Positions 935-44,711 of a DNA stretch of 44,955 nucleotides are shown here, one piece after another (position 1 is the first letter of the stretch; each line of letters opens with the position of its first letter). The stretch is taken from the NCBI GenBank assembly GCA_020850015.1, contig JADZFF010000064.1, forward strand, positions 1 to 44,955, read 5' to 3'. Both the position numbers and the translations under genes were made by a program. This DNA comes from Bdellovibrionales bacterium. GTDB taxonomy: Bacteria; Bdellovibrionota; UBA1018; JADZFF01. The notes below the pieces were generated by a model. The model made no database searches. It was not told the DNA's origin and saw only the letters and a program-made list of their open reading frames with translations.

Positions 935-1016
935 ATTCCTCAGGGGTTAGCGGTTCGAGGGACTTCTTCAAGGAGCAAGCCTCCGGCCTGTTGAGCCCAT
1001 GTTTTTGGGGGAACGT

Positions 1017-4000
1017 ATGCGGCCTGGATTGCGCAGGGCAAGGCACTGGCTTGGGGGTACCACTCCCCTCCTGGCCTCGCTTGCCCTGTTGTTGAGCGCC
1101 GCCCCTGGCTGCACCAAGATCCAGGACTTCCTGAAGCCCGTGGAGGTACCGCCCGAGGAGGCCGGCCCGCCGCAGTGGCGGCTGGGCGCCACCGACGACC
1201 CGGCCGAGTTCGATCTGCGCCTCATGGGCTCGGCGCTCGCGCCCTCTTCCACGACCCAGGCCTACCTGGATTTCAAGCTCACGGGCACGGCCACGGGCGC
1301 GGGCCTCGTTGCCTCGTTCCCCTTCGAGCCCGGCGACAGCTCGCCTGAGGTGCACCGGGTTTTCGCGCGCGGCTATGGTCCCCGCTCCGCAGGAGGGAAA
1401 GGTTGGGTCAAGACCTCGCCGGTCTTCGACACCATCGACGACTTCGCGGCCCAAGGGATTCTGGGCAACGAGACCAGCGGAGGCAATCTCGCGGCGGCGA
1501 TGTCGCTCGGCGGCGACCTGATCGCGGCCTTCGGAGCCTACCAGTCCACCGGGTCCACGAGCACCGCCCACGCCGCGATCCGGATGGCCGATGAGGGCTG
1601 GGACCAGCAGTCCATCCTCACCGCCCCGACCTTTGGCGAGGAAGCGGCGCACGTGAACCTTTCCCGGGGACTCGGGCGTTCCTCCGACCTGGTCTGGGAC
1701 CAGGTTCCCTCGGCCTGGTACGGGTACATCGCAGGACAGAATGCGATTCGAATCGAACTCAATGTCGGCGCCCCAGGCGAAAACCTCTACGAATATTGGG
1801 TGAACGGAGTCCGCGTGCGGCTCACCAGCAATGGCGCGAACCTCACAATGAGCGACGAGCTCGACGAGCTCGAGCTCGAGCACCAAACTGACGGCGCAGA
1901 CGCGGTGGCAGAGTTCGTCAATCTGGGGTGTTCGACTCTGAGCCCGGCGGTTCAGAGCCGCTGCGCCTTCCTGCTTTCGCCTAACCCTCTCGGTTCGCCG
2001 GACGAACCTCTTCATGTCTATCCCGTGAGCGCGGTAACCGTGGCGCCGAGCGGGGTGGTGCGCGCCCGCCGCTACGACTTCCTGAACGGCTGGGGCGCGC
2101 TGTCGGAGCCCATGAGCATCGGGGCGGGCGCGGAGCAGGTGCAGATGGTGGCCGACGGGGTAAAACGCCACGCGCTTTGGGTGTCGCGCTCCCCGGTGAA
2201 CCGCGCAGACCTAGCCCTGGGCCAAGATCACTCCTGCGTGCTCGACAACCTCGACGTGCGCTGCTTCGGCCGCTCCAACCAGGGGCAGGTCGGAACTGGC
2301 ACCACAGCCGACGTCTCCACCCCCGCTCAGGTCCACGGCCCGGTGGCTTTTTCCGCGGTCTACTCCTCGGGCCTTCACACTTGCGCGATCTCGGACGTCT
2401 CGGACGACCGCCGTGTCTATTGCTGGGGCGAAAACGGGTCGAGCCAACTGGGCGTGGTCGGCCCCACCGACAGAACCACCCCGGTTCTTGCCGCGGCGAT
2501 CACCGACGTGATGGAGCTCGCCGTGGGACTGAACCACACCTGTGCCATGCGCGACTCCAACAGCAACGGCCTCGCTGACGAGATCTGGTGCTGGGGTTCC
2601 AACAACTCCGGGCAGATCGCAGACGCTGGCGTCTTTCCTTCCACGGATGTCGCGCCCACCTTGATCACGGACTTCGGGGGTGCGGATTACCTCTCGATCA
2701 CCGCGGGCAACAATTTCACCTGCGCCGTCACGGATGACGATGCGGTCTACTGCTGGGGCGATAACGGGCTTGAGCAGCTTGGCTCCGGCGCGGGAGCCGA
2801 CACGAACGTACCAACGCTCGTCGCCTCGCCTTTCGCCGTGCATACGAAGGTCCGCGCGCATGGAAACGTCGCCTGCGCGCTGAGCAACGACGAACGGCTC
2901 GCCTGCTGGGGCGAGAATGACCTGGGACAATCCGGCGTGGTGGGGGCCGCGGACCCCGCCCCGCCCGGGATCGTGGACACCTCCCTGACGGACGCGACCG
3001 ACCTCCCCGATGTGCAGGACTTCGGCGTGGGCGACAGTCACGTCTGCGCCATCGTCGACTCCACTGATCGAACCCTCGTCTGCTGGGGCAGCGACCAGTA
3101 CGGTCAGCTCGGGAATCTCCGCGCCGAGTGCGGCGGCGTGGCCCCAGGGCTTCCTTGCGAGGTCCATGCCCCCGTAGTCGTCGCGGGGCCCATTCAGGGC
3201 GTGGAACACATCGCCGCCGGCGAAGACCACACCTGCGCCATCACGGACTCCAAAGACACCTACTGCTGGGGACACGGACAGTACGGAACGCTCGGCAACG
3301 GCGTATCCGACCTCGATGCCTTCGCCGGACAGCCCGTGGCGATCAGCGGCGCCACGGTCTGCAAGGGCAGGGAGTGCCTCCTTTCGGCGACGCTGGACGA
3401 CCCCACGCGGATCCGAGTCCAAGCGGTCGGCACGACCTCCCTTCAGAACGGGATGGGTTCCTTTCATGCCTCCACGAGCGGTCAGGGCGACGTTTTCGTG
3501 ACCTGGGTTCAGTGCGACGACACTCTCGCCGCCGACTGCGTCAGCGGCAATTCCGGGTTCCGCCACTACGGCGCGCTTCGCAACGCGATCGGTCAGTGGT
3601 CGCCTCCGGCGCGGGCCGACAGCGCGTTCGACGGTGTTTTCGACTTCTTCGTCACGAATACCCCGCGCATGGGCCAGCCCGTAGTGCAGCCCCGCACCGC
3701 GTATGTGGGCGAAGGGAAATTCCTATCCGTCTTCAACGTCACGATTCAGGACGAGGGCGATGACCCCGACGAGGTCGTAGATGACCTGGGAGCCCGCATG
3801 CTCATGGCGAGGCTTTACGATCGTGTGACCGGGTTCGAGGCTCAGACCTTGGGGGTTTACGGGGATTCCCACGACGTGGAGCAGTTCGAGGACGCGGGCG
3901 AACGCCTCATGGCGGCCAACCGGATGGAGATCGCGGTGACAGGCTCAGGAGACGTCACGCTGGTGGTTCAACAGCCAAGCATCTCCCTCGGAGTGACACC

Positions 4001-4256
4001 CTCCTCGGCCGCGACCACGTTTTACTGGAGGGTGCTGCGCTTCAACGCCTTCGACTTCGACGCGGAGTCGGGGGACTACGACGCTTCCGGCCCCGTCTTC
4101 ACGCACAGCGATCTGGTCTGCACCGGCTCCACCTTCGCCTGCCGCGCCATAGACCCGCCTCAGCTTCAGCTCTTCGATGACGACGAGGCCCTGATCCTGC
4201 TTCCTGGTCTCAACTCGGGCGGCTACAAGCGCCTGCACTCGGTGGAGTACTTCTGA
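1017..4256 (+). CDS. Secreted lipoprotein with a seven-repeat RCC1 beta-propeller
   Basis: A 1079-aa exported protein. The start at 1017 is preferred over ATG 999 because GGGGGAA precedes it at good spacing. The N-terminus has arginines, a hydrophobic run and APGC followed by TK, a weak lipobox. Residues of about 30-390 have no recognised family. Residues of about 398-762 hold seven RCC1-like repeats, each with a Cys in a [HFV]xCA[IVM] segment and a second in C[WF]G followed by QxG (CFGRSNQGQVG, CWGENGSSQLG, CWGSNNSGQIA, CWGDNGLEQLG, CWGENDLGQSG, CWGSDQYGQLG, CWGHGQYGTLG). Seven blades make a complete propeller, probably with one disulfide per blade. About 315 residues follow. Such proteins usually bind other proteins at the cell surface; no partner or enzyme activity is evident. 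The next gene overlaps by 1 nt. Confidence 0.85.
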   Translation: MRPGLRRARHWLGGTTPLLASLALLLSAAPGCTKIQDFLKPVEVPPEEAGPPQWRLGATDDPAEFDLRLMGSALAPSSTTQAYLDFKLTGTATGAGLVASFPFEPGDSSPEVHRVFARGYGPRSAGGKGWVKTSPVFDTIDDFAAQGILGNETSGGNLAAAMSLGGDLIAAFGAYQSTGSTSTAHAAIRMADEGWDQQSILTAPTFGEEAAHVNLSRGLGRSSDLVWDQVPSAWYGYIAGQNAIRIELNVGAPGENLYEYWVNGVRVRLTSNGANLTMSDELDELELEHQTDGADAVAEFVNLGCSTLSPAVQSRCAFLLSPNPLGSPDEPLHVYPVSAVTVAPSGVVRARRYDFLNGWGALSEPMSIGAGAEQVQMVADGVKRHALWVSRSPVNRADLALGQDHSCVLDNLDVRCFGRSNQGQVGTGTTADVSTPAQVHGPVAFSAVYSSGLHTCAISDVSDDRRVYCWGENGSSQLGVVGPTDRTTPVLAAAITDVMELAVGLNHTCAMRDSNSNGLADEIWCWGSNNSGQIADAGVFPSTDVAPTLITDFGGADYLSITAGNNFTCAVTDDDAVYCWGDNGLEQLGSGAGADTNVPTLVASPFAVHTKVRAHGNVACALSNDERLACWGENDLGQSGVVGAADPAPPGIVDTSLTDATDLPDVQDFGVGDSHVCAIVDSTDRTLVCWGSDQYGQLGNLRAECGGVAPGLPCEVHAPVVVAGPIQGVEHIAAGEDHTCAITDSKDTYCWGHGQYGTLGNGVSDLDAFAGQPVAISGATVCKGRECLLSATLDDPTRIRVQAVGTTSLQNGMGSFHASTSGQGDVFVTWVQCDDTLAADCVSGNSGFRHYGALRNAIGQWSPPARADSAFDGVFDFFVTNTPRMGQPVVQPRTAYVGEGKFLSVFNVTIQDEGDDPDEVVDDLGARMLMARLYDRVTGFEAQTLGVYGDSHDVEQFEDAGERLMAANRMEIAVTGSGDVTLVVQQPSISLGVTPSSAATTFYWRVLRFNAFDFDAESGDYDASGPVFTHSDLVCTGSTFACRAIDPPQLQLFDDDEALILLPGLNSGGYKRLHSVEYF

Positions 4257-5851: not shown

Positions 5852-5884
5852 CGCTTCCCCCGTCTGCATGGCAGCCTGGGCCGC

Positions 5885-7177
5885 ATGCTGAACACCGTTT
5901 TTCCAAAAACCCGTAAGGAAGCCAGCCGCGAGGCGATCGGCGGAATCACCACTTTCTTCACGATGGCCTACATCGTGGTGGTGAACCCCGCGATCCTGTC
6001 GACCGAAGGAACGGGCATGCCCTTCTCGGGCGTGCTCACCGCCACTGTGCTGCTCTCCGCGGTCTGCACCCTCCTCATGGGCCTGTACGCGAAGCTCCCC
6101 TTCGCGGTGGCGCCCGGGATGGGCATCAACGCCTTCTTCACCTACACGGTGATCCTGGGCCAGCAGGTGCCCTGGGCCACGGCGCTCGGCATGGTGTTCT
6201 GGGCCGGCGTGATCTTCATCCTCGTCTCGGTGACTCCCGTTCGGGTGGCGATCGCGAAGGCCATCCCCCACAACCTCCGCATCGCCTCGGCCACGGGCAT
6301 CGGGGTGTTTATCTCGTTCATCGGGCTCAAAAACGCAGGCGTCATCGCGGCCCACCCTGTGACCTTCGTCACGGTGGGAAAGCTCGGCTGGCCCACCCTG
6401 GCTTTCTTTTCGGGCCTCGCGGCCGGCGTCTGGCTCATGCGCCGCAAAAACCCGTTCGCGCTCTTGGCCGCCCTGGGGCTCGGCACGGCGATCGGCGCGG
6501 GCGCGGGTCTGGTGGGAGCACCCGCCTCGTTCGTGAGCGCGCCCGATTTCTCTCTATTCCTGAAGGCCGATTTCGCAGGCGCACTCGACCTCCAGTTCCT
6601 GCCCATCATCATCACGCTCTTCGCCACCGACCTGTTCGACTCGATCTCGACCTTCGTGGGCGTTTCGCAGGCGGGCGGGCTCCTCGATTCCAAGGGCAAC
6701 GCGAAAAACCTCAAGGAAGGCCTTCTCGTGGACGCGGTGGCCACGGTGGGCGCGGGCCTGGCAGGCACCTCCTCGGGCACGGCCTACATCGAGAGCGCGG
6801 CGGGAATCGAGGCGGGCGCACGGACGGGCTTCGCCTCCGTGGTCACGGCGCTCTGTTTCCTCCCCTGCCTTTTCCTGGCACCCCTGGCCGGGATGGTTCC
6901 GGGCTTCGCCACGGCCTCCGTTCTCGTGCTCGTGGGCGCGCTCATGTTCCGAAGCGTTAAGGAACTCAAGCTCGGCGCGCTCGAGGATTCTCTACCTGCG
7001 TTTCTGACCATTGTTTTGATTCCGTTAACGTTCTCCATCACGCAGGGCATTTTGTGGGGCTTTCTGGCTCACACCGCGCTTTACCTGCTTTCGGGGCGCG
7101 GGCGCGAGGTCGGCGGTGGTCTTTACGCGATCGCGGGCCTCTCGGCCGTGTTGCTCTGGATCTCTGACCTGGGCTAA
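5885..7177 (+). CDS. NCS2/AzgA-family purine permease
   Basis: A 430-aa polytopic inner-membrane protein. The N-terminal REAIGGITTFFTMAYIVVVN followed by NPAIL, the motif APGMGINAFFTY, and LFATDLFDSISTFVG are hallmarks of the AzgA/PbuG branch of nucleobase permeases (COG2252), which import adenine, guanine or hypoxanthine with protons. The length (430-490 aa usual) and 12-14 hydrophobic segments fit. Substrate preference cannot be read from the sequence. It starts 33 nt after the lipoprotein gene without a clear Shine-Dalgarno sequence. GMP reductase, encoded nearby in the opposite direction, and PhoX make a purine/phosphate salvage context plausible. Confidence 0.93.
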   Translation: MLNTVFPKTRKEASREAIGGITTFFTMAYIVVVNPAILSTEGTGMPFSGVLTATVLLSAVCTLLMGLYAKLPFAVAPGMGINAFFTYTVILGQQVPWATALGMVFWAGVIFILVSVTPVRVAIAKAIPHNLRIASATGIGVFISFIGLKNAGVIAAHPVTFVTVGKLGWPTLAFFSGLAAGVWLMRRKNPFALLAALGLGTAIGAGAGLVGAPASFVSAPDFSLFLKADFAGALDLQFLPIIITLFATDLFDSISTFVGVSQAGGLLDSKGNAKNLKEGLLVDAVATVGAGLAGTSSGTAYIESAAGIEAGARTGFASVVTALCFLPCLFLAPLAGMVPGFATASVLVLVGALMFRSVKELKLGALEDSLPAFLTIVLIPLTFSITQGILWGFLAHTALYLLSGRGREVGGGLYAIAGLSAVLLWISDLG

Positions 7178-8849: not shown

Positions 8850-9856
8850 AGCGCCTTGTGCGGCAGGCTCTCCGTTCGGCCGGCGGGCGTGACGAGCACG
8901 AAATTCATCTTGCGCTGAAGCTCACGGATGTTGGCTGCTCCCCCGTAGGTCAGGCCTGAGCGCAGGCCACCGATGAGGTCGGCCACGATGGCCTCCTCGT
9001 CCTCGCGGTAGGGCACGTTCACGGCCACGCCCTCTGCGGTCTTCCACTCGGGCATGCCGCCCATGAAGTCCTCCTGCGCCTCGCGCGAGGCCATGCCGCG
9101 GTACTGCTTCACCTGGCGGCCGTCGGCGAGTTTCACCACGGGCCCGGGAGTGACGCGCGTGCCTGCGAACATCCCGCCCACCATCACGAAGTCCGCGCCG
9201 AAGGCCAGGGCCTTCACGATGTCGCCCGCGGTGCGGATGCCCCCGTCGGCCACGATCGAGCGGTCTACCTTCGCGCACTCCTCGATCGAGCTCAGCGTGG
9301 GGATGCCGAAGCCGGTCTTGATGCGAGTGCTGCACACGGAGCCTCCCCCGATGCCCACCTTCAGGATGTCGGCGCCGCAGCCGGCGAGGTAATCCGCGCC
9401 CGCGTAGGTGGCCACGTTCCCCGCCATGATGCAGGCGTTTGGCAGATGCTCCCGCAGCCGCTTCAGCGTCTTGCCCACGTACTTCGCGTGCGCGTGCGCT
9501 ACGTCCAAACAGAAGTACTCGGCGCCTGCGTCGCGCAGCGCGAGCGCCCGCTCGAGGTCGGCCTCCGAGCAGCCCACCGAGACAAAAACCTTTTTCTTGC
9601 ACTTCTTGAACTCGGCCACGTTCTGCTCCACCGACAGGAACCGGTGAAGCACGCCGATGCCGCCCCGCTCGCCGATGAAGTTCGCCATCGTGCTCTCGGT
9701 GACCGTGTCCATGTTGGAGGTCATGAGCGGGAACTCGAGCGTGAGTTTGCCCATGCGGTCGGTCATGGAGATATCGACATGGCGGCGGCTCTCGTAGTGG
9801 TTGTAATTGGGCACGAGCAGCACGTCGTCGAAGGCGTAGGTCTGGCGGTTGTTCAT
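8846..9856 (-). CDS. guaC: GMP reductase
   Basis: A 336-aa TIM barrel of the IMPDH/GMPR family. It converts GMP to IMP with NADPH and releases ammonia, returning guanine nucleotides to the adenine branch. Seen: the N-terminal TYAFDDVLLVPNY, the catalytic loop GGSVCSTRIKTG with Cys at about 175, SIVADGGIRTAGDI, and the GMPR-type C-terminal pattern GMASREAQEDFMGG, AEGVAV and GGLRSGLTYGGA. There are no CBS domains, and the length matches GMPR (about 345) rather than IMPDH (about 490). TATGCA preceded by TG lies 8 nt before the ATG and could be a nearly leaderless extended -10. Convergent with phoX, with a 4-nt overlap. Confidence 0.9.
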   Translation of the reverse strand: MNNRQTYAFDDVLLVPNYNHYESRRHVDISMTDRMGKLTLEFPLMTSNMDTVTESTMANFIGERGGIGVLHRFLSVEQNVAEFKKCKKKVFVSVGCSEADLERALALRDAGAEYFCLDVAHAHAKYVGKTLKRLREHLPNACIMAGNVATYAGADYLAGCGADILKVGIGGGSVCSTRIKTGFGIPTLSSIEECAKVDRSIVADGGIRTAGDIVKALAFGADFVMVGGMFAGTRVTPGPVVKLADGRQVKQYRGMASREAQEDFMGGMPEWKTAEGVAVNVPYREDEEAIVADLIGGLRSGLTYGGAANIRELQRKMNFVLVTPAGRTESLPHKAL

Positions 9857-9896
9857 AGAGCTTCTGCATAGCAGAGCCCCTCGTGCTCAGCCAGCC

Positions 9897-10931
9897 TTAG
9901 CCGTCTGCCCCGCAGCCCCGGACCTGCCGGGTGGCGGTGGGCTCGAAGATCGCGGGCGGGGGTGCGGCGAGCAAACCGGCCCGAAGCCGGCAGCGGGTTT
10001 CGTGCTCGGCGATGAGCTCGTCACCGAACAGAACCTCCAGCGCATGGCGCCGGTTGTTCGGATCCCAGCCCGTGCGATGAGTCCAGATTCCTTCCATGTC
10101 CGGCGCCTCGTCCGAGTCGGCCTCGAAAATGCGTTCGATTCCCTCTTGATCGGCGCGAAATATCGCCACGAGGTGCGGGAATGCGGAGCTCACGCCGATC
10201 TCTCCGTATTTGATCTTCCGAACGGCGATGCGGGTGCCCGCGCCGTCGAGTCGCTCGCCAGCCCGGGTGATCATGCAGCGAAAGGCGTGCCGGTACTGCT
10301 CGTCGCTGCCCGGAGCCGGAAAGCGACCCCGGAGCCAGCGAACGCCCATGTCGTAGGCGTCGGGGGCGATATAGAGCGCCTCGATCCTCGGGCGCGAGGG
10401 CGCAAGCGCCGGCATGCCCGGGATCCTCGAGAGGCACTGCGCGATGGCGTACTCGCGCTCGCGGGGAGAGGCGTGCTTGAAATTCGTGAACGAGCCGGGC
10501 GACTCGAGAAAGGTCCATGCCGGGTTCTCGGGGGCGTCCTCCGTCTTGTACACAGAGGCGTTGAAGGCCTCCTCCCAATCGTCGCTCCAGGAAGGGGTAC
10601 GGCCGCAGAGCATGTTGAGGGCTCCGCTCGAAGAGCTCGACGTGCTGATCCGGAAACCCGCGAACACACGGCCTCCCTGACGGTACTCATTGAGCCTGCG
10701 GATCGCGGCCTCGGGATCCGCGAAGCGCTGAAGGGCGCGAGCCATTTCCCCGGCGACGGGACTCGGCGAGGGAGAGAGGGTGGTGTGGCCATCCGCCCAA
10801 TCCAGGAAGTTCGTGGGGTCGATGAACTCGATGAGCCATTTCGAGCGGTCCGGGGTACCCGACCCTGCGTACCCGGGAAGGCCCACCCCGGCCAGGCCGA
10901 CAAGCAAGAGGATCGTGAATAAGCGGGACAT
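9897..10931 (-). CDS. Secreted protein of unknown function
   Basis: The chosen ATG (10931) opens a classic Sec signal peptide (MSRLFTILLLVGLAGVGLPGYAG), with GGAGA 13 nt upstream. An upstream in-frame start at 11018 would bury the signal. The mature part is about 320 residues with several cysteines, SDDWEEAFNASVYKTED and DPNNRRHALEVLFG. I recognise no family and see no catalytic motif. An upstream TGCTAGGTT (extended -10) at about 10973-10981 could drive it with a short leader. It lies 40 nt before guaC's start on the same strand and is divergent from the BNR protein gene. Confidence 0.7.
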   Translation of the reverse strand: MSRLFTILLLVGLAGVGLPGYAGSGTPDRSKWLIEFIDPTNFLDWADGHTTLSPSPSPVAGEMARALQRFADPEAAIRRLNEYRQGGRVFAGFRISTSSSSSGALNMLCGRTPSWSDDWEEAFNASVYKTEDAPENPAWTFLESPGSFTNFKHASPREREYAIAQCLSRIPGMPALAPSRPRIEALYIAPDAYDMGVRWLRGRFPAPGSDEQYRHAFRCMITRAGERLDGAGTRIAVRKIKYGEIGVSSAFPHLVAIFRADQEGIERIFEADSDEAPDMEGIWTHRTGWDPNNRRHALEVLFGDELIAEHETRCRLRAGLLAAPPPAIFEPTATRQVRGCGADG

Positions 10932-35388: not shown

Positions 35389-36357
35389 TTAGACTGGAAC
35401 CCAGAAGTGAGCCATTGGCCCTGGTGTGACCTCGACTTCGGTGGGCCCGGACAGGGGATGCAGCTCACCGTCGAGCGTGATGCCTCCGCCCAGGCGGGCC
35501 ACGAGCCGCTCCGCGCCCGCGGCTTGAAACAGGCCCAGATGGGCGAGGGTTCCGGGGTCGCCCCAGCCTGCCAGAAGCCGGGGCACATGCCTCGCCAGAT
35601 CGCGAAGCTCCATCCCGTTGGCGGCCACGTGAAAGGTCCCGGGCTCAAGCGCGGCGGGCGAAAAGGGCCTGATTCCGAGGCTGAGCCTCGGGACCGTCCC
35701 CGCCAGGAGCGAAAGACAGGAGAGCTCAGGGTCTCCGTCGACCACTCCTCCTTCCACGCGCATTCCGAGCGCCGCACGCTCGAAAAGCGAGCCGTCGCGG
35801 CCCAAAGCCGCCCGAACGATGGTCTGCCCGGCCACCACCAACGCGTCCCACGGCCCCGGGCGGGCGGCCCGGGCGTAGTAGGCGCGGAGCACCCGCTCCC
35901 CCACTCCCCATGCCATGAAAAATCCGTACAGCGGGGCCGCATCGCCGATTCGGACGCGGAGGGTGGGCACCGCGCGAAGCGCCGCGAGCCTGCCCTCGCT
36001 CCAACGCTGGAGAGTGGTAGCACCCGAGCCCCGAATGCCGAGCCAGGAACTGAGGAAGTTGATCGTGCCCCCACGTACGGCCAGAAGCGTGGGAAGCGCG
36101 GCCCCTTCCCCGCGCGCGCGGATCCAGGCCGTGATGCCGCGGCTCACGGAACCGTCGCCCCCGTAGAAACACAAGGTGCCCGAGCGTCGCTCCGGATGAG
36201 CCGAAAGTTCCTGAAGGACCTGATCCAGCTCCTCGAGATTGTGGGTCACGCGCACGTCGGGCCTGCGCGGCGCGAGCGCCCGGGCCATCTTCGCCTCGGC
36301 GCCGGCGCACCTGCGCGCGTGCGGATTCAGAACGACGGTGAGCGGCCCGGCCGTCAC
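35389..36357 (-). CDS. Diacylglycerol/lipid kinase family protein (DAGKc)
   Basis: A 322-aa protein of the YegS/DgkB type. VVLNPHARR near the start, CFYGGDGSVSRGI (GGDG at 66-69, nucleotide binding) and LLAVRGGTINFLS (GGTxN) are the catalytic-domain motifs. The C-terminal TLDGELHPLSGPTEVEVTPG is the usual lid strand. Such kinases phosphorylate diacylglycerol, sphingoid bases or related lipids with ATP. The GTG start overlaps the psd stop as GTGA, so the two genes are translationally coupled, which points to membrane-lipid metabolism. The natural substrate is not known. Confidence 0.88.
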   Translation of the reverse strand: MTAGPLTVVLNPHARRCAGAEAKMARALAPRRPDVRVTHNLEELDQVLQELSAHPERRSGTLCFYGGDGSVSRGITAWIRARGEGAALPTLLAVRGGTINFLSSWLGIRGSGATTLQRWSEGRLAALRAVPTLRVRIGDAAPLYGFFMAWGVGERVLRAYYARAARPGPWDALVVAGQTIVRAALGRDGSLFERAALGMRVEGGVVDGDPELSCLSLLAGTVPRLSLGIRPFSPAALEPGTFHVAANGMELRDLARHVPRLLAGWGDPGTLAHLGLFQAAGAERLVARLGGGITLDGELHPLSGPTEVEVTPGPMAHFWVPV

Positions 36358-37244
36358 GCGGAGGCCACCGCTTCACCGAGCCGAACCGCGGTCTCGCGGC
36401 CCGCCTCGGTCTGGGCGAGCAGATCGGCGTCGGGCTTCCAGCGCCCCGGCTCGCCCATCAGCACCACCGTGGAGCCTCCGAACAGGAAGTAGCCCTTCTC
36501 CTCGCCGCGCGCGTGGGGTTTCGACTCGTCATGCGACTGCACGATGCGCCCCACGCAAAGCGCGCCCACCTCGACGCAGGCCAGAAGCCCGAAGTTCGCG
36601 CTCTCGAGCACGGCCACGCGGCGCTCGTTCGTGAAAAGGATGTCCTCCCGCCGCGCGAGCGCGATCGGGCTCACGGAGTGCAGGGGGCCATGGAGGGTGT
36701 AGGCGTCGAGCGTGCGGCCCGCGTCGGGATAGTGGTAGCGGTGGTAATCCGTGGGGCAAAGGCGCGCGATCATGAGCGGGCCGCCCGACAGGCGCTCCGC
36801 CCAACCGCCCCGCTCGCCCAGGAGGGCCGAGGCCGAGATACGGCTCCCCTTCACGGGATAGCGTCCAGCGGGGCCGGTCTTGGCATAAGCCACGTACTTG
36901 CCCTCCGCGAACGCGGGCAGGCGCTTGGGAGCGCTTTCCCAGGGGCGCACGCCCTCGCGGAAGCGCCGGATGAAGAAGTCGTTGAAGCTGCGGAACCCCG
37001 GATCCACGTACTCGTCCATGGGGATCTTGAAGTCGCGGATGAAAGGCTTGATCTTGCGGCGGCTCAGCGCCGAGCTCTGTACGGCGCCGTAGACCCGACT
37101 GAAGGGCCTCCGCGTGAGCAGAGTCGCCGTCAGGGCCCGCCCCGGGGCGGTTTCATAAATCCACCGCATGAATTTCTCGCCGTACACGGCTTCCGTGGCC
37201 AGCCGGCCCGCGCGCCGGTCCCAGTACTGGATGTCGGTTCCCAT
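36354..37244 (-). CDS. psd: Phosphatidylserine decarboxylase proenzyme
   Basis: A 296-aa enzyme that converts phosphatidylserine to phosphatidylethanolamine at the inner membrane. Seen: FRSFNDFFIRRF, LCPTDYHRYHYPDAG (catalytic His region) and the self-cleavage site in FLFGGSTVVL, where Ser258 would become the pyruvoyl group (the family motif is xGST). ATG 37244 is chosen because the usual N-terminus begins close to IQYWDRRAG. TAGGCT lies 7 nt upstream, a candidate leaderless -10. The lipid kinase gene follows with a 4-nt overlap. Confidence 0.95.
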   Translation of the reverse strand: MGTDIQYWDRRAGRLATEAVYGEKFMRWIYETAPGRALTATLLTRRPFSRVYGAVQSSALSRRKIKPFIRDFKIPMDEYVDPGFRSFNDFFIRRFREGVRPWESAPKRLPAFAEGKYVAYAKTGPAGRYPVKGSRISASALLGERGGWAERLSGGPLMIARLCPTDYHRYHYPDAGRTLDAYTLHGPLHSVSPIALARREDILFTNERRVAVLESANFGLLACVEVGALCVGRIVQSHDESKPHARGEEKGYFLFGGSTVVLMGEPGRWKPDADLLAQTEAGRETAVRLGEAVASA

Positions 37245-37251
37245 GCCGGGA

Positions 37252-37257
37252 AGCCTA
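37252..37257 (-). promoter_or_regulatory. Candidate leaderless -10 box of psd
   Basis: TAGGCT on the minus strand, 7 nt before the ATG at 37244. No -35 box was recognised; supported only by position. Confidence 0.3.
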
Positions 37258-37296
37258 ACACAAAGGCCACGCCCCCCCATGGGTACCGGAGGCCCG

Positions 37297-38259
37297 TCAG
37301 ATGCTCGGAACGGCGCCCCTGGATCGTGCGACGCCACCCAATACCGGTCCCAGGGCCTGGCGCTCCACGGCGTCGGCCTCCGAGGCGCGGATGCCGGTAC
37401 CCGAGGGCCCGCCACGCGGTGCATCCGCCGACGTACGTTCGCTCAGGCGCGTACACTCGGCCTCATAAAGCTCCGGGTAGTACAGGAACTTGATCCACGC
37501 CTCGTCGCCCGCGCTTGGCACGCCGCCGTTGTTCCAGTCGTCGTTGCAGTAATTCATGATCGAGTCCTCGTCCCAGGGGCCGAGATGGAGGTCGGGCCTC
37601 GAGCCCTGCGCGGGAGGCGCGTCGCCGCAGGCCTCGCCGGGGCCGGTGGGAGTATCCTCGCGGTTCTGCTCGTGCGTAAGCCCAAGGGCGTGGCCGAACT
37701 CGTGCGCGGCGATCTTGCGGATGCAGCTCTCACGGACCGCGGCGTTGGCCATGCAGCTTGGCTGCCAGACGTTGTAAGTGAAATTCAAGATCATCTCGCC
37801 GTGGCGGTCGCGCAGCCCCCTCCCGAGCTCCGTCACGCGCGGGTTCTCGTCGGCCACCCGGATGCGGATGCCGCCGGAGTTGCCCTCCGAGCAGCGCGTC
37901 CAGCCCACGAAACGCATGCGGCGCGACTCGGGGATCCCCGGCACGTTCAGGATGCGCCCCCAGGTCTGCTCGATCTGATCGCGCGTCCACTGCCGTTCCT
38001 GGTCGCGGGCCGGGTCGTAGGACTCGTCCTGCCAGCAGACCGGGATCTGCCGCAGGTCCCAGATCTCGGCCGACCGCGCGGAAAGCGCGGAGACCACCAC
38101 CCCGATCTCGGAGTCGTCGGGCACCGTGCCGCCTCGAGCCTCGAGCCCGTCGCAGTACCAGGGTTCCGGATCCGTGCAGCCCCGGTTTCCCATCGAAATC
38201 GGGGCGGCCAAGAGGAGCAGGAACGTCACTGCCAATCGGCGGCGAGAATTGAGTTTCAT
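37297..38259 (-). CDS. Secreted metzincin metalloprotease
   Basis: A 320-aa protein with an export signal (MKLNSRRRLAVTFLLLLAAP). A Cys at 28 follows NRG, so a lipoprotein is possible but the lipobox is poor. The full metzincin motif AAHEFGHALGLTHEQNR is present (His186, Glu187, His190, Gly193, His196), and DEDSIMNYC is the Met-turn, closest to the astacin/matrixin style. Several Cys pairs suit an extracellular fold. GGAG lies 8 nt before the ATG, so this gene uses a normal leader. The 52-nt gap to psd contains psd's own candidate promoter. Expected to be an active exported protease. Confidence 0.9.
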   Translation of the reverse strand: MKLNSRRRLAVTFLLLLAAPISMGNRGCTDPEPWYCDGLEARGGTVPDDSEIGVVVSALSARSAEIWDLRQIPVCWQDESYDPARDQERQWTRDQIEQTWGRILNVPGIPESRRMRFVGWTRCSEGNSGGIRIRVADENPRVTELGRGLRDRHGEMILNFTYNVWQPSCMANAAVRESCIRKIAAHEFGHALGLTHEQNREDTPTGPGEACGDAPPAQGSRPDLHLGPWDEDSIMNYCNDDWNNGGVPSAGDEAWIKFLYYPELYEAECTRLSERTSADAPRGGPSGTGIRASEADAVERQALGPVLGGVARSRGAVPSI

Positions 38260-38431: not shown

Positions 38432-39376
38432 TCACAGCCAGATCGACAGCACCACCGACGCCGCCGATGCCGCGAGCGTGCCGATCATGAGGCGCTCCAC
38501 GCCCTCCCGGATCGGCGGCGCTTTGAGGGGCTTCTTCAGGAAGGGCAGGCACTTCAAGAGCAGATGCGCCCAGAGGCAGGCGGGCAGGAGCCAGGGAAGA
38601 AGCACGAGCGGGGTCCAGGCGGCGGAACCGAGCGACCAAAAGGCCAGCCCTTGGCTGAGAATCCCCAATCCCCGCACGACGACGGTCACCGGCCGGGGCC
38701 CATAGAGCTTGCTGTAGGTGATGTAGGCCGTCTCCTCTCGGGTGCCGCGGATCTTCCGGCCCAGCTCCCACTGCGTGAATCCCAGGGCCACGGCCGCGAG
38801 GTACGCGACGGCGCCCGGAGGAACACCCGCTGCGCCGGGGGCGTCGGCCTGGCCTGGAAACCAGAAGAAGCTCAGGACGTAGAACTGCTGGAGAGCCACC
38901 ACGGGATGGTGGGTGAGAAAGGCCGCCGTAAGCCGCGGGCGGATCCAAGCTTCCGCGAAGAACCACCGGTACGTGCCCCCGCCAAAAAGAAGCAGTAGAA
39001 TGACGGCGAACAAGGGGCCCTTCCCCACGAAGGGAAGATTCGCCGCGAGCACCAGCGTGTTGAGCGCCACCATCAGGAGCTTGAGGTCCCGCAGGCTCAC
39101 CGTTCCCTTCACGAGCGGTCGGTTCGGGAAGTTCACGGGATCCGTTCGGTGATCCTTCACCTCGTCGTACACGCGAAGAAGAATCACGAAGGCCACCGTG
39201 GCCAGGCCGCCCAGCCCGAGCTCCAGTGCGGGGACCTGCAGATAGAAGAAGAACCGACTCAGGACCCAATGGCAGACGGCGAAGGTGGCGAATATGCCCA
39301 GCTGCGAGGGAAACAGGGGAACCATCTCGCGAATGAATCGCCCCCAGCGGCCAGCCATCGTGGAACCCTTTTTCAT
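38432..39376 (-). CDS. UbiA-family prenyltransferase
   Basis: A 314-aa integral membrane protein with about eight to nine helices. The first Asp-rich motif VYDEVKDHRTD (Asp71, Asp75, Asp79) is followed by FPNRPLVKGTVSLRDL, and the second conserved loop ELGRKIRGTREETAYITYS matches the UbiA pattern E-xx-RKI-R. UbiA enzymes join an isoprenoid diphosphate to an aromatic ring or, in archaeal-type lipid synthesis, to a glycerol-phosphate lipid; the acceptor cannot be told here. It is divergent from the aminotransferase-reductase operon across 117 bp, and has its own leaderless promoter. A CarS-like gene in that operon makes a lipid acceptor worth considering. Confidence 0.9.
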   Translation of the reverse strand: MKKGSTMAGRWGRFIREMVPLFPSQLGIFATFAVCHWVLSRFFFYLQVPALELGLGGLATVAFVILLRVYDEVKDHRTDPVNFPNRPLVKGTVSLRDLKLLMVALNTLVLAANLPFVGKGPLFAVILLLLFGGGTYRWFFAEAWIRPRLTAAFLTHHPVVALQQFYVLSFFWFPGQADAPGAAGVPPGAVAYLAAVALGFTQWELGRKIRGTREETAYITYSKLYGPRPVTVVVRGLGILSQGLAFWSLGSAAWTPLVLLPWLLPACLWAHLLLKCLPFLKKPLKAPPIREGVERLMIGTLAASAASVVLSIWL

Positions 39377-39493: not shown

Positions 39494-42196
39494 ATGGAGT
39501 CCCTCATCCAGCAAAATCAGGAGTCCCTCGCGGCCCTCCCTCCCCGACCGTCCTTGCACGAGCTGGGGCGCCGTTACGGCAAGAGCTCCCTCGTGGATCT
39601 GCTCCAGCTTCTGGGCCTGGACCGCGTGTACCATCGCGCCGAGGCCGACCAGATCTTCTACCGGACACCTGACGGAGAAGAACGCGCCGTTTGGGACTTC
39701 CTGGGCGGTTATGGCTCCACGATCCTGGGGCACCATCCCCCGGAAGTCCGCGGCGTGCTCCGCCGCGCGCTCGACGATGGCGTGCCCGTGCACGCGCAGG
39801 CCTCGCTTCGCGCCGGGGCCCAGGAGCTGGGGCTCGCGCTGAACCAGCTCATCGCCTCGGACCGCTCCGACCCCCTGACGCCGCCGCCCCGATACCATGC
39901 GCACCTGCTCAATACGGGCACCGAAGCCGTGGAGGCCGCGCTCAAACACGCCCTCATGGAGTGGAGCGAGCGGCGGGCCCGGCTTCTCCTGCGCCTGGAG
40001 CGCGAGCGCAACCGAGCGCTCGGAGCCACCGAAGGCGCGTCGGAGCGCGCGCGCATGGCTGAGCGGCTGATCGAGGCCGTGCAGAACGCCGAGCCCACGA
40101 TCCTCGCGATGGAGGGATCTTTCCATGGCAAGACGGCGGGCTCGCTCGCCGTCACCGCCAACTCGGCCTACTCGGCCATGTACCACTCGCGCGCCGCACG
40201 CACGGAGTTCCTGCCCTGGAACGCCGACGCCGCGCTCGTTCGGAGCGCCTTCGACCGCTTTCTCGTCGCCGCCACGGACGAGCTCTCGTTTTCCAGCCTC
40301 GCCGCCGTGATTTTCGAGCCCGTGCAGGGCGAAGGTGGCGTGCGCCCCATGAATCCGGCCTTCGCGTGCGAGCTCGCACGCAATGCTGGTCTTCAGGGCG
40401 TGCCCCTCATCGCCGACGAGATTCAGAGCGGTCTCTACCGCACGGGCCGCGCGCTCGCCTCCCACGGCCTGGGCCTCACACCGGATTACGTGACCCTCGG
40501 GAAAAGCCTCGGCGGAGGATATGCGAAGGTATCGGCCTTCCTCGTACGCTCCGAACGATACGTACCCGAGTTCGGCCTCCTCCACAGCTCCACCTTCGCG
40601 GAAGACGAGCCCAGCTCCCTGGCCGCGCTCGAAACCGTGCGCACCCTGGCCTCCATGCCTCGAACGCTCACGGACCGTGCCCAGCGCTTCGAAGGCCGCA
40701 TGCGGGAAGGCTTCGCGGGGATCATGCAGCGCCATCCCGGAGTGATCCGCGAGGTTCGGGGCCGCGGGTTCCTTCTGGGCGTGGAGTTCGCAGCCGAAGA
40801 GGGCCTCTCGAGCGTGCTCGTGCGCGACATGCTCGCGAGCACGGGGTACCTGGGCTACGTCTTCGCGAGCTACCTCCTGGAGCGCCACGGCATACGCGTC
40901 GCCGCGACCCTGAGTCAGGGCAATACGCTGCGCATCGAACCCTCGGCCTTCGTTCCGGATGAGGCGGTGGACGCCTGCCTCAAGGCCTTCGAGGAGCTCG
41001 CCACCCTCGTCCACACCCGCCGCTTCCTGGCGCTCACGGCCCACCTCTGGCCCGACGCTTCGCGCAGCCCGGCGCTCGCCACTTCGCCGCTGGCCTCGCT
41101 GCCCGCCCCAAGCCGGATCCACGGCAAGACCGGACTCCGAAAAGTGACCTTTCTCTCGCACCTCATCGACTCCGAGCACCTCTGCGCCCTCGACCCTCTC
41201 TTCGGCGCCCTGAGCGCGGCCGACCGGACGCATTTCCTCGAGCAGGTCGGCCCGCTCGTGCGCCCGCAGATCTACTACGAGCAGATCGTGGAGGGCTCGA
41301 ACGGCGAGCGCGTGCAGCTTCAGCTCATGGGCATCGCCATCGGAAGCTCCTTTTTCGAGAAGTGCCTCCGCTCCGGCGACCGCACCGCGCTCCGGAAGGT
41401 CCAGGAAGGCGTGATCCGCGCCATGCGCGAGGAGGGCGCCACCCACCTGGGTCTGGGCCAGTACACGAGCATCGTCTCGGACAACGGACTCCTGCTCTCG
41501 CTCGATCGCCAGTGGAACGTCACCACGGGCAACAGTCTCACCGCGGGCTTCGCGCTGCGCTCCCTGGAGCAGGCGCTGGAGCGCCGAGGCCGCCGCTTGG
41601 ACGACTGCCGCGTCGGGATCGTGGGCGTGGCCGGAAACATCTGCAACACCCTGGCTCAGCTCGTGGCGGACCGGGCCTCGGCCCTCACCGTCGTGCACCG
41701 CGAGTCGCTCAAGGTGAGCCCGAAGTTCCAGCGCGCCGTGGCCGAAGTCGTGAAGAACTCCCGGCTGAGCCTCGACGCCATCCACGCCACCTCGGATCTC
41801 GCCGACCTCAATGCCTGCGACGCGGTAATCCTGGGCACCAACAGTTCGCGCCAGCTTCTCCTTCCCGAGCACCTCAAGAACGGCGCCGTGGTGCTCGATA
41901 TCTCCGTGCCCTCCAACATCCACCCCTCGGTGTTCGAGCTGCGTCCCGACGTGGACTGCTTCCAGGGCGGCTACGCCCGCATGCCGCTCGGCCAGAAGCT
42001 CGGCTCGCGTTTCGTGCCGATCGCGGAAGGGGAGATTTTCGCCTGCATGGCCGAGACCCTGGCCACGGCGCTCGACGGGCATCAGGGGCGGCTCTCTTTC
42101 GGGCCGCTCAGCAAGGCGAGCGTGCTCGACGCGCTCGCAATGGCCGACCGGGTTGGCATCGGCCTGGGCTCCCTGAAACGCACGGCGGCCATCTGA
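39494..42196 (+). CDS. Fusion: class-III aminotransferase + acyl-ACP reductase-like domain
   Basis: A 900-aa two-domain enzyme. Residues of about 45-500 are a fold-type I, class-III (omega) aminotransferase: LNTGTEAVEAALKHA, EGSFHGKTAGSL, FEPVQGEGG, LIADEIQSGLYRTG (PLP Asp) and TLGKSLGGG with the PLP lysine at 337. Residues of about 545-900 resemble cyanobacterial long-chain acyl-ACP reductase (AAR): FLSHLIDSEHL, VRPQIYYEQIV, GLGQYTSIVSDN, VTTGNSLTAGFAL, the Rossmann segment VGIVGVAGNICNTLAQLV, and GEIFACMAETLATAL. That last segment keeps the Cys (851) matching the acyl-carrying Cys of AAR. Inferred reaction: acyl thioester to aldehyde with NADPH, then transamination to a primary amine, as in the PigE/TamH bifunctional enzymes, which use a different reductase. 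The next gene starts 7 nt on. Confidence 0.85.
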   Translation: MESLIQQNQESLAALPPRPSLHELGRRYGKSSLVDLLQLLGLDRVYHRAEADQIFYRTPDGEERAVWDFLGGYGSTILGHHPPEVRGVLRRALDDGVPVHAQASLRAGAQELGLALNQLIASDRSDPLTPPPRYHAHLLNTGTEAVEAALKHALMEWSERRARLLLRLERERNRALGATEGASERARMAERLIEAVQNAEPTILAMEGSFHGKTAGSLAVTANSAYSAMYHSRAARTEFLPWNADAALVRSAFDRFLVAATDELSFSSLAAVIFEPVQGEGGVRPMNPAFACELARNAGLQGVPLIADEIQSGLYRTGRALASHGLGLTPDYVTLGKSLGGGYAKVSAFLVRSERYVPEFGLLHSSTFAEDEPSSLAALETVRTLASMPRTLTDRAQRFEGRMREGFAGIMQRHPGVIREVRGRGFLLGVEFAAEEGLSSVLVRDMLASTGYLGYVFASYLLERHGIRVAATLSQGNTLRIEPSAFVPDEAVDACLKAFEELATLVHTRRFLALTAHLWPDASRSPALATSPLASLPAPSRIHGKTGLRKVTFLSHLIDSEHLCALDPLFGALSAADRTHFLEQVGPLVRPQIYYEQIVEGSNGERVQLQLMGIAIGSSFFEKCLRSGDRTALRKVQEGVIRAMREEGATHLGLGQYTSIVSDNGLLLSLDRQWNVTTGNSLTAGFALRSLEQALERRGRRLDDCRVGIVGVAGNICNTLAQLVADRASALTVVHRESLKVSPKFQRAVAEVVKNSRLSLDAIHATSDLADLNACDAVILGTNSSRQLLLPEHLKNGAVVLDISVPSNIHPSVFELRPDVDCFQGGYARMPLGQKLGSRFVPIAEGEIFACMAETLATALDGHQGRLSFGPLSKASVLDALAMADRVGIGLGSLKRTAAI

Positions 42197-42203
42197 GGAC
42201 GCG

Positions 42204-44711
42204 ATGAGCAACGGAAATCAAGCACTCATGCATCTTGGATCCAGCGACTTCCGCGAGGCGGAGGCCGGAGGCAAGGCCGCGCCCCTGCATCTCCTGGCGC
42301 GGGCCGGGTTCCCGGTGCCCCCGGGATTCGTCGTGCCTTCCGTGCTCGCGCTCGACTCGCTCTCGGAGTCCGAGCTCGCCGAGGCGATCCAGGCGATCGG
42401 CGGATTCCCCGTGGCCGTGCGCTCGAGCGGGCTGCTTGAGGATCTGGGCGACGCGAGCTTCGCCGGCCAGTACGCGACCTTTCTCGAGGTCTCGGATCTC
42501 GCCGAGCTTCGCCGCAAGATCGCGCTCTGCCGCCTCTCGGGCTCGAGCCCCCAGGTGCAGGCCTACCTGAGGCGCCGCGGGCTCGCCCCCGAAGCCGCCC
42601 GGGTGTCCGTGCTCGTGCAACGGATGGTCCCCGCCTCCGTTGCCGGCGTGGCTTTCACCCTCCACCCCCTGAACGGGCGGGAGGAGCACGCCCTCGTGGA
42701 GCTGTGCCGAGGCCTCGGCGAGCGCCTCGTTTCCGGCCTCACTGACCCCACGCGAATCACCTTGGACCTTCGCGACGCCTCCGTCGTGGAGCGCAGCCCG
42801 GGCGCCGAGGACGCCGCGCTTTCGCCGGAGGTCCGCGAGGAGCTCCGCCGAAGGCTTCTTGAGCTTCAGGCTCGCGCCGGCCGCCCCCAGGACGTGGAGT
42901 TCGCGGTGGACGCGGAGGATCGGCTCTGGCTGCTCCAGTCCCGCCCGATCACGGTGTTCCGTTGGCGCGACGAACCCGACGAGTACACGAACGCCGACCT
43001 CAAGGACGGTGGCGTCTCCGCGCGCGTCTGCACTCCGATGATGTACGCGCTCTACCGCGACGCCTTCCAGGAAGCCATGCCCGCCTATGCCGAGGCCGTG
43101 CGCCTGCTCCCTCGTTCGCGCGCGCGCGTGAACCGCGACATCCCCTGGATTCGGTCCTTCTATGGACGCGTATACTGGAACGCCTCGGCCGCGAAGCGGC
43201 TGATGGCCTCCATCCCGGGCTTCGACGAACAGCGATTCGACCAGGACCTGGGAATCCAGAAGAGCTACGGCCCCCAGGGACCGCTGCGGGTGCCCACCAC
43301 GGCGGCCACCATCCTTCCGGCGATTCCCGTCGCGATCGCCCTGGCCCGGCACTACGAGCGGCACCTCGTCCACACCCGCCGCTTCCGCGCCGAGTTTCCC
43401 GCCGCCGAATCGCTTTTCCTGCATCGTGCCTCCGAGTTCGCGCGCGTGCCCGACGCCGACTTCTGGGCCCAGCTCCAGGAGTGCCTGAACTGGCAGCACC
43501 ACGCGGAGGTCACGTACTTCACGACGATCTTCGCCAACACCAACGCGCAGAGCGACTTCAAGACCCTCGTGGCGAAGATCGACCACGCCACCGGAGGTGT
43601 CACTTCCGTCATCCGCCTCATGGGCGGGCTCGAGGGCGTGAGCCACCTGAACGTCCAACGCGATCTGCCCCCGCTCCTGGCCCTGGCCCGTACCGAGGGC
43701 ACAGCGAGCGAGCCCTACCGCCGCGCGCTCGCGGCCTTCCTGGCCTCGCACCACTATCACGCCAACGCCGAGCTCGATCTGCTCTGCCCCCGCTGGGGCG
43801 AGGACCCCTCGATCGTGACGGCGATGGTGGAACGCCTCCTGCGCTCGGGCGCGGCACCGGCCGATCCGGATGCCTCGGCCCGCGCGCAGGCCCGCGCCTT
43901 CCGCGAGGAGCGCGACGCGGTCCGTGAACGCCTCCGCGAAGCGGGTTGGGCGACGCGGCTCCGATTCCTCTCCTCCTTCGAATCGGCACTCGCGCGCATG
44001 CGCGAGTACCTGGCCGCTCGCGAGGAGATGCGCGACTGCTCGTCGCGCGCCTACCGCGTCATGCGGCTTTACCTCCTCGAGGCGGGGACGCGCCTTGCCC
44101 GCAGCCAGTGGGTGGAGGACTCGAACGACGTTTTCTTCATGGACACGGCGGAGCTCCGCGAATGCGCGAGCACCACGCCCAACCTCGATGCCCTGCGCGC
44201 CCGGATCGGCTACCGTCGGCTCATGTTCCTGGGTCTCAGCGAGCTGAGCCCGCCGAACGAGTTCGGCTCGGGCGTGCTTCAGCAGAGCGTGGAAAGCGCG
44301 CGCCTCGTGGGCGCCGGAGGCGAGACCCTGCTTCAGGGGCTGGGCTGCAGCCCAGGCGTCGTGGAGGGCCCCGTGCGCGTGCTCGCCGAGCTCTCGCACT
44401 CCGGCGAGCTCAGGGAGGGCGAGATCCTCGTGACGCGCTTCACGGATCCAGGCTGGACGCCCGTGCTCGGACTCGTGCGCGGGATCATCACCGAGGTGGG
44501 CGGGCTGCTCTCGCACGCCGCCGTGATCGGGCGTGAATACGGCATCCCAGCGGTCCTGAATCTGCCGGGCGCCACGCAAACCCTCCGCACTGGCATGCGA
44601 GTGCGGCTCGACGGCAACTCGGGCCGGGTGACGCTGCTGAATGAAGCCGATGCGGCGCCACTCCGCCCGAACGCGATTCCCTCCGGCGCGGAATCCTCCC
44701 TGCCCCTATAA
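42204..44711 (+). CDS. PEP-synthase-like phosphotransferase/ligase (ATP-grasp + phosphohistidine domain)
   Basis: An 835-aa protein. The N-terminal ATP-grasp (PPDK/PEP synthase type) shows AGGKAAPLHLLARAGFPVPP, VAVRSSGLLEDLGDASFAGQ and LWLLQSRPITV. A long middle domain (about 265-680) does not match the PEP-binding barrel. The C-terminal swivelling domain has GLLSHAAVIGREYGIPAV with the phospho-His at 771. This ATP-grasp/substrate domain/His layout and length are those of rifampin phosphotransferase and of the prodigiosin/tambjamine condensing enzymes PigC/TamQ, not of PEP synthase proper. So it probably activates a small molecule or lipid with ATP. GAGGA lies 4 nt before the ATG. It directly follows the aminotransferase-reductase gene and should act on its product or on a partner of it. 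Confidence 0.85.
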   Translation: MSNGNQALMHLGSSDFREAEAGGKAAPLHLLARAGFPVPPGFVVPSVLALDSLSESELAEAIQAIGGFPVAVRSSGLLEDLGDASFAGQYATFLEVSDLAELRRKIALCRLSGSSPQVQAYLRRRGLAPEAARVSVLVQRMVPASVAGVAFTLHPLNGREEHALVELCRGLGERLVSGLTDPTRITLDLRDASVVERSPGAEDAALSPEVREELRRRLLELQARAGRPQDVEFAVDAEDRLWLLQSRPITVFRWRDEPDEYTNADLKDGGVSARVCTPMMYALYRDAFQEAMPAYAEAVRLLPRSRARVNRDIPWIRSFYGRVYWNASAAKRLMASIPGFDEQRFDQDLGIQKSYGPQGPLRVPTTAATILPAIPVAIALARHYERHLVHTRRFRAEFPAAESLFLHRASEFARVPDADFWAQLQECLNWQHHAEVTYFTTIFANTNAQSDFKTLVAKIDHATGGVTSVIRLMGGLEGVSHLNVQRDLPPLLALARTEGTASEPYRRALAAFLASHHYHANAELDLLCPRWGEDPSIVTAMVERLLRSGAAPADPDASARAQARAFREERDAVRERLREAGWATRLRFLSSFESALARMREYLAAREEMRDCSSRAYRVMRLYLLEAGTRLARSQWVEDSNDVFFMDTAELRECASTTPNLDALRARIGYRRLMFLGLSELSPPNEFGSGVLQQSVESARLVGAGGETLLQGLGCSPGVVEGPVRVLAELSHSGELREGEILVTRFTDPGWTPVLGLVRGIITEVGGLLSHAAVIGREYGIPAVLNLPGATQTLRTGMRVRLDGNSGRVTLLNEADAAPLRPNAIPSGAESSLPL

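Follow-up and report, generated by a model that had tools for sequence, protein, structure and literature searches.

A widespread clade of rifampin phosphotransferase-type dikinases encoded beside phospholipid and TamH-like genes

What does an enzyme with the ATP-binding and phosphohistidine domains of a phosphoenolpyruvate (PEP) synthase act on when the region between them is not that of a PEP synthase? The question is raised by a gene of a Bdellovibrionales bacterium carried on a 44,955-nt stretch of DNA (hereafter the window), which is the entire contig C64 of a metagenome-assembled genome (MAG; 3.44 Mb in 200 contigs, 88% complete). The name PPS-B is given here to the family of this gene (42204-44711), and PPS-A to a second dikinase found in the same clusters. 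PPS-B is a widespread, well-conserved, uncharacterised clade of small-molecule dikinases of the rifampin phosphotransferase (RPH) type, and the annotation of such genes as "phosphoenolpyruvate synthase" is misleading. As to its role, we give an even chance to PPS-B phosphorylating a lipid that is then activated by a CarS-type enzyme.

Fold, active site and phylogeny

The original prediction for this gene, that its ATP-grasp and swivelling phosphohistidine domains are conserved and that its middle is not a PEP barrel, is borne out. Both flanking domains are recognised by Pfam (table 1), and the region between them (between residues 257 and 737) has no Pfam match. A canonical PEP synthase or pyruvate phosphate dikinase (PPDK) was rejected, there being no barrel in Pfam, residues 252-708 being almost all helical in the predicted structure and the chain ending after the His domain. 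An antisense open reading frame (ORF) at 42108-44579 was taken as a high-GC artefact. NCBIfam models all score far under their cut-offs, namely PRK06241 (338 bits vs 883), RPH (261.8 vs 999), PigC (254.2 vs 1300) and RedH (249.1 vs 1350).

The whole chain was modelled with AlphaFold2 from a 57-row alignment (pLDDT 91.2, pTM 0.90), and its top match is RPH (Foldseek 3.4e-35; VIA Z 28.1). The three best VIA rows align 653-724 residues at 10-12 A because domain positions differ between the structures, and phmmer aligns residues 493-812 with RPH 558-866. Folded alone, the acceptor domain (residues 252-708; pLDDT 92.8, nearly all helical) matches the rifampin (RIF)-binding domain of RPH with a VIA Z of 23.1 over 379 of 457 residues (rmsd 3.9 A, 14% identity), the best non-RPH row having a Z of 9.3. 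All six Foldseek matches at E ≤ 0.001 are to RPH; the VIA list shows no further family, which does not in itself exclude other families. The middle domain, originally thought new and not recognisably rifampin-binding, therefore has a known fold.

Residues named in PMC4844700 were mapped onto 28 PPS-B rows. Lys22 and Arg117 of the ATP part of RPH are kept as K24, just before the PPDK_N match, and R73 (28/28 each). At the phosphate site Arg666 corresponds to R606 (27/28, with Lys in one row) and Glu667 to E607 (28/28), and Lys670 is replaced by R610 (28/28); catalytic His825 is H771 in 28/28 rows. In contrast, PPS-B lacks the RIF-contact residues Gln336, Gln337, Tyr351, Thr354, Pro356, Ala357, Met359 and Val368, with some uncertainty in the alignment near 336-357, and does not keep Leu387, Phe479, Thr523, Gly527 or Met673; the position of Leu478 holds I, L or V in 25 of 28 rows. 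An invariant D268-G269-G270 may take the place of Gln336/337, although the alignment is unreliable there. PPS-B thus differs from RPH in pocket residues, not in fold.

Across 57 aligned members 55 positions are invariant, among them H771 (57/57), E607 and R610. The acceptor domain also has highly conserved acids: D268, E342, E435 and E607 (57/57), D265 (56/57) and E523 (55/57). One PPS-B chain combines the features of the RPH-type superfamily, an ATP-grasp, a helical domain like the RIF-binding domain, a C-terminal His swivel, an Arg/Glu/Lys(Arg) phosphate site and the catalytic His, and the domain roles, the His relay and the phosphate-site residues assigned to it are supported by alignment and model. 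The RPH study describes RPH relatives as a large unexplored group with unknown substrates; its distant clades retain the Arg-Glu-Lys block (block 9) but not the RIF residues, other substrates being probable for them, and a clade N enzyme did not confer RIF resistance (PMC4844700).

A quick maximum-likelihood tree of 54 rows, from which PigC and TamQ sequences were left out, groups the 28 PPS-B rows, without exception, behind a single branch (SH-aLRT 100). They are separated from the RPH rows and their relatives L151 and L152, from three RedH-type rows (among them L168, which is below the RedH cut-off) and from PPS-A. PPS-B lies outside the RPH rows, and the outcome that had been named as contrary to the original prediction, a placement among confirmed antibiotic-inactivating phosphotransferases, did not occur. 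The window row belongs to a four-row set (98) with two rows of its own order and a Mycobacterium sp. row (L063), a grouping that suggests movement of PPS-B between phyla by transfer.

The ORF is no product of chance, as orthologues at E < 1e-110 are present in 33 of the 368 genomes in the phylum sample, the window's own genome counted. A pattern search of genome_contigs gave at least 591 stretches, and 583 of the 591 listed were confirmed to encode a relative, the nearest among the matches listed being from Bdellovibrionales, Oligoflexia, Bacteriovoracaceae and "Deltaproteobacteria" MAGs. By their record titles, the best 80 loci include Nocardia, Mycobacterium, Bdellovibrionota, Riflebacteria, Cyanobacteria/Sericytochromatia, Planctomycetota, Myxococcales, Desulfobacterales, Gemmatimonadetes, Spirochaetota, Bacteroidetes, Geothrix, Methylomirabilis, Pseudobacteroides, Oscillospiraceae and Lachnospiraceae.

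Gene neighbourhoods

Neighbour profiles were built from PPS-B loci and run over 80 named loci with flanks of at most 10 kb, so that all neighbour counts are lower bounds. Among the 62 non-Nocardia loci we found CarS in 35, UbiA in 30, a second dikinase in 30, a TamH-like gene in 25, phosphatidylserine decarboxylase (PSD) in 24, a GNAT protein in 20 and PssA in 12, and the next same-strand gene within 300 nt was TamH-like in 21, CarS in 19, PssA in 10 and PSD in 5. A typical clostridial order is CarS, PPS-B, PssA, PSD, UbiA, PPS-A, GNAT (L118, L125, L132). As a control, 20 stretches of 20 kb each were taken from seven PPS-B genomes. The CarS, UbiA, PSD, PssA, GNAT and TamH-like profiles gave no match in any of them (0/20 each), the dikinase profiles matched in one and the AMP-ligase profile in two. 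Four loci (L077, L082, L086 and L122) have none of the lipid, TamH or alpha-oxoamine synthase families. The top NCBIfam match of the PssA-like protein is archaetidylserine synthase, below cut-off, and the GNAT family (c8) has Pfam matches in some members only and no PDB match by phmmer. PHROGs gave a weak kinase match.

A TamH-like gene is present in 43 of the 80 loci, and in 18 of these, 17 from Nocardia and one from a Sericytochromatia MAG, it forms one protein with PPS-B. In the window the TamH-like protein has a class III aminotransferase domain (Pfam, residues 60-501) with pyridoxal phosphate-binding Lys337, followed at residues 541-900 by an AAR-like acyl-thioester reductase (PigE 3.3e-17, cyanobacterial AAR 1.7e-5) with a GxxGxxG motif at 708-714 and Cys851. 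The same domain order, lysine, glycine motif and catalytic cysteine characterise TamH-type enzymes. In 44 aligned relatives, fused ones included, K337 and C851 are invariant (44/44 each) and the three glycines are kept in 27, 44 and 44 rows. The amine-forming enzyme noted next to PPS-B is real, and its TamH-type domain order and its fusions to PPS-B make it a stronger clue than first stated. PigE was rejected as a name, as its two domains, though of the same kinds, come in reverse order, and the matching order makes TamH the better comparison. Pseudoalteromonas tunicata TamH, an aminotransferase followed by a thioester reductase, converts fatty acids to amines together with TamA (PMC9594044), and in tambjamine synthesis TamQ condenses the amine so formed (PMC6667630; PMC9594044). 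Beside the TamH-like and PPS-B genes of locus L038 lies a very diverged dikinase-like protein of 729 aa (4680-6869, minus strand).

The 18 Nocardia and Mycobacterium loci have a setting of their own. TamH-like is present in all 18, and a second dikinase, an oxoamine synthase, a thymidylate-kinase-like protein, NTP_transf_5 and an AMP ligase in 17 each. Nocardia loci (L057-L072 and others) encode these five proteins together with a TamH-PPS-B fusion of ∼2000 aa, in what looks like an uncharacterised biosynthetic cluster. In L070 (5460-9962), PPS-B immediately follows genes for sulfate activation, one CysD-like by eye and one matching CysN/APS kinase in Pfam, with SDR, alpha-oxoamine synthase and, by similarity cluster, diacylglycerol kinase-like genes also present; this is maybe a locus for a sulfated or sphingoid lipid. 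Other loci carry further additions. Three from Desulfobacterales (L105, L106 and L108) have a DUF3419 protein, which we take to be betaine-lipid BtaA-like, between UbiA and PPS-A (PF11899 7.9e-65 in L105). In L103 a fusion of fatty-acyl-reductase-type NAD_binding_4 with LPG_synthase_C (704-2833) lies directly upstream of PPS-B and CarS, with TamH absent.

At the window locus itself (table 1) the UbiA-like and PSD genes lie divergently upstream of the TamH-like and PPS-B genes. The CarS-like gene is listed as an ORF from 44641, the likely start being ATG 44719, 7 nt past the dikinase gene. In the UbiA-like family (the window and 26 relatives) the first Asp motif is kept and the second Asp motif normal for UbiA proteins is replaced by WExxRK (27 rows), so that going by these motifs it is perhaps not a prenyltransferase. 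The PSD is the only one found in this genome. PPS-A is on another contig (C115, L169) at 8303-10798 (profile 786 bits), adjoining a GNAT-like gene at 7188-8564 on the minus strand (194 bits). The related locus L054 has its second dikinase where the window has the metalloprotease. The RCC1-repeat protein at the other end belongs to a type best known from eukaryotes.

Table 1. Features of the window and domains of PPS-B
Feature	Position	Strand	Remarks
RCC1-repeat protein	999..4256	+	1085 aa; PF25390 1.1e-55, PF00415 1.4e-37
Diacylglycerol-kinase-like protein	35389..36357	-	PF00781 5e-5, just under gathering score; possible lipid-locus member
Phosphatidylserine decarboxylase (PSD)	36354..37424	-	PF02666 4.2e-45; GGST site present
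Astacin/matrixin-like metalloprotease	37297..38259	-	PF01400 3.6e-5; between PSD and UbiA-like genes
UbiA-like membrane transferase, divergent	38432..39376	-	NCBIfam PRK13592 4.4e-31, below cut-off; profile 288 bits
TamH-like fusion	39494..42196	+	900 aa; ends 7 nt before dikinase gene
PPS-B, RPH-type small-molecule dikinase	42204..44711	+	835 aa; ATG 42204, stop ends 44711
PPS-B ATP-grasp part, residues 57-257	42372..42974	+	Pfam PPDK_N, 1.5e-46
PPS-B all-helical acceptor domain, residues 252-708	42957..44327	+	fold of RPH RIF-binding domain; phosphate-site R606, E607, R610
PPS-B swivelling phosphohistidine domain, residues 737-807	44412..44624	+	Pfam PEP-utilizers 5.7e-24; catalytic His771
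CarS-like CDP-lipid synthase, truncated by contig end	44719..44955	+	profile 73 bits; relatives match PF01864

Lipid kinase or ligase

Both activities originally proposed for PPS-B, a PigC/TamQ-like ligase and a lipid kinase, survive, and the lipid kinase is favoured because the wider neighbourhood is one of phospholipid assembly. On this model, ATP would load His771 with a phosphoryl group, with AMP and Pi leaving; the His domain would swivel to the helical acceptor domain, and R606, E607 and R610 would pass the phosphate to an oxygen, a hydroxyl or its equivalent, on a long-chain lipid intermediate. The CarS-like cytidylyltransferase would next activate this phosphorylated intermediate, the PssA-like enzyme would attach serine and PSD would decarboxylate it, yielding an aminophospholipid. 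In many genomes, including that of the window, the TamH-like fusion would contribute to the lipid core by converting an acyl thioester, by way of the aldehyde, to an amine. We infer the acceptor, that is the lipid that CarS activates, as well as the order of the steps and the product.

Comparison of genomes with and without the amine enzyme bears on this assignment. When 21 genomes were searched with the TamH-like protein, the match extended into the reductase domain in 11; the other 10 gave no such match, and in every one of these the PPS-B locus contains CarS. The acceptor domain has 27 conserved positions, 24 of which are retained in 9 or more of the 10 PPS-B rows from TamH-less genomes (among the other 47 rows compared are some whose genomes were not searched for TamH). 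The acceptor site therefore does not track whether a genome has the amine enzyme, while next to PPS-B stands CarS, an enzyme that requires a lipid phosphate. CarS comes in addition to a CdsA-type gene in 13 of 14 genomes and is there a second cytidylyltransferase, the window's own genome being the one without a CdsA match. Six of the 14 have two PSD genes, and for five clostridial genomes the search found a single PSD, which by its coordinates is that of the PPS-B cluster.

The alternative with most in its favour, which we nevertheless hold to be rather unlikely, is that PPS-B is a ligase in the manner of TamQ and PigC. A partner molecule would be phosphorylated on a carbonyl oxygen, and the phosphate would then be displaced by the TamH-derived fatty amine to give an enamine or amide-like lipid, with release of AMP and two Pi and no phosphate retained. 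The frequency of TamH-like genes and their fusion to PPS-B agree with this, as do the joint action of TamH and TamQ in tambjamine synthesis (PMC6667630, PMC9594044) and the fold family, R-E-R and His residues common to RedH and PPS-B. The clade is separate from RedH, however, with scores far from the PigC and RedH cut-offs; PPS-B persists with the same acceptor-site positions in the 10 genomes without a TamH-like protein; CarS is adjacent to it; and no bipyrrole (MBC) genes were recognised among the window ORFs scanned, the contig ending at 44955 and the rest of the genome not having been searched. A nitrogen of a fatty amine or amide could instead be phosphorylated, to give a phosphoramidate lipid. 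Campylobacter glutamine kinase Cj1418, which phosphorylates the nitrogen of glutamine, would be a precedent; dikinases of the superfamily vary widely in acceptor, an amine is the product of the enzyme adjacent or fused to PPS-B, and the acceptor domain has the conserved acids listed above. As PPS-B is kept in genomes without TamH, we regard N-phosphorylation as improbable. Inactivation of rifampin or another drug, which the three-domain architecture shared with RPH might suggest, is more improbable still and was rejected on pocket residues, tree and co-occurrence: an above-cut-off RPH accompanies PPS-B in two of nine Nocardia/Mycobacterium genomes searched that have PPS-B (both Nocardia). The lipid genes beside PPS-B also speak against a drug kinase, as do the predicted other substrates of distant RPH clades and the clade N enzyme without RIF resistance (PMC4844700).

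Several points weigh against PPS-B as a lipid kinase. The evidence from gene neighbourhood is not biochemical, the 80 loci, with many from Bacteriovoracaceae and Nocardia, do not count as independent, and the profiles were made from the same loci in which presence was counted. CarS, UbiA, PSD and PssA are found in none of the 18 Nocardia/Mycobacterium loci within flanks of at most 10 kb, and the Nocardia TamH fusion in such a setting fits a fatty-amine ligase better; some loci have tambjamine-like parts, an AMP ligase, acyl-CoA dehydrogenase and alpha-oxoamine synthase, which together with that fusion favour a ligase there. The need for a second dikinase is unexplained by a lipid kinase. In the window's own genome neither a CdsA-type gene (PF01148, E ≤ 1e-4) nor a PssA near PPS-B was found, and the full route is therefore not demonstrated there; either the incomplete MAG lacks the CdsA gene or the CarS-like enzyme takes over its role. 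It may be that a single PPS-B family operates in loci of both types; alternatively, the assignment as a kinase may be wrong.

The PPS-B cluster, common to many bacterial phyla, is probably responsible for a type of membrane lipid not yet described. Only tentatively, and leaning towards doubt, do we propose its full outline: a phospholipid-assembly pathway with two RPH-type dikinases, a UbiA-like transferase, a GNAT acyltransferase and a dedicated CDP-lipid synthase, serine transferase and decarboxylase. Many lineages would build in a fatty amine made by the TamH-like enzyme, so that the product would be a phospholipid that contains an amine or lacks glycerol and that receives its phosphate from a phosphohistidine dikinase. 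No published description of a pathway with these genes was found in the open-access literature, supplements aside, which is weak evidence of absence. The myxobacterial elb ether-lipid operon was considered and rejected, its genes, as given in a review, differing from those of the PPS-B cluster.

These findings give one large clade of unexplored RPH relatives a concrete, testable context, and TamH-type genes are seen to occur outside pigment clusters. If PPS-B does phosphorylate lipids, it would represent a novel type of lipid kinase, working by a phosphohistidine relay and converting ATP to AMP, and the cluster would point to a membrane lipid, so far unseen, in Bdellovibrionota, rumen Clostridia, Desulfobacterales, Planctomycetes and others.

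Comparison with known systems

The closest known enzyme is RPH-Lm (PDB 5fbt, 5hv1; PMC4844700), which PPS-B resembles in domain order, in fold, both whole and in the acceptor domain, and in its ATP, phosphate-site and His residues; it differs in RIF-contact residues, in clade and in having lipid and TamH-like neighbours. The condensing enzymes of prodiginine and tambjamine synthesis, RedH, PigC and TamQ, share with PPS-B the superfamily, the catalytic residues (RedH was the one aligned) and a TamH-like partner, whereas PPS-B is outside the RedH clade, far under the family cut-offs and often in CarS/PSD/UbiA loci. PEP synthase PpsA and PPDK likewise have ATP-grasp and phosphohistidine domains, but PPS-B has a C-terminal His domain and a helical acceptor domain and lacks the PEP/pyruvate barrel. 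HpeHI, an RPH-type enzyme whose description uses the term "small-molecule dikinases" (PMC12167813), also acts on a small-molecule acceptor, and the ATP-grasp of HpeI (PDB 9goj) matches that of PPS-B with a Z of 16.7. HpeHI is a two-component, phenol-type enzyme of aromatic catabolism, whereas PPS-B is one chain in lipid loci.

The TamH-like neighbour has the same order as P. tunicata TamH, an N-terminal class III aminotransferase followed by an AAR-like thioester reductase (PMC9594044); the two were compared by description, not by sequence, and they differ in that the neighbour occurs in lipid loci and bipyrrole genes were not seen with it. As for the cluster, the archaeal branch of UbiA, CarS, archaetidylserine synthase and decarboxylase comprises the same four enzyme families that cluster with PPS-B. 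Unlike it, the PPS-B loci have a UbiA-like protein with WExxRK, two dikinases, a GNAT protein and bacterial hosts.

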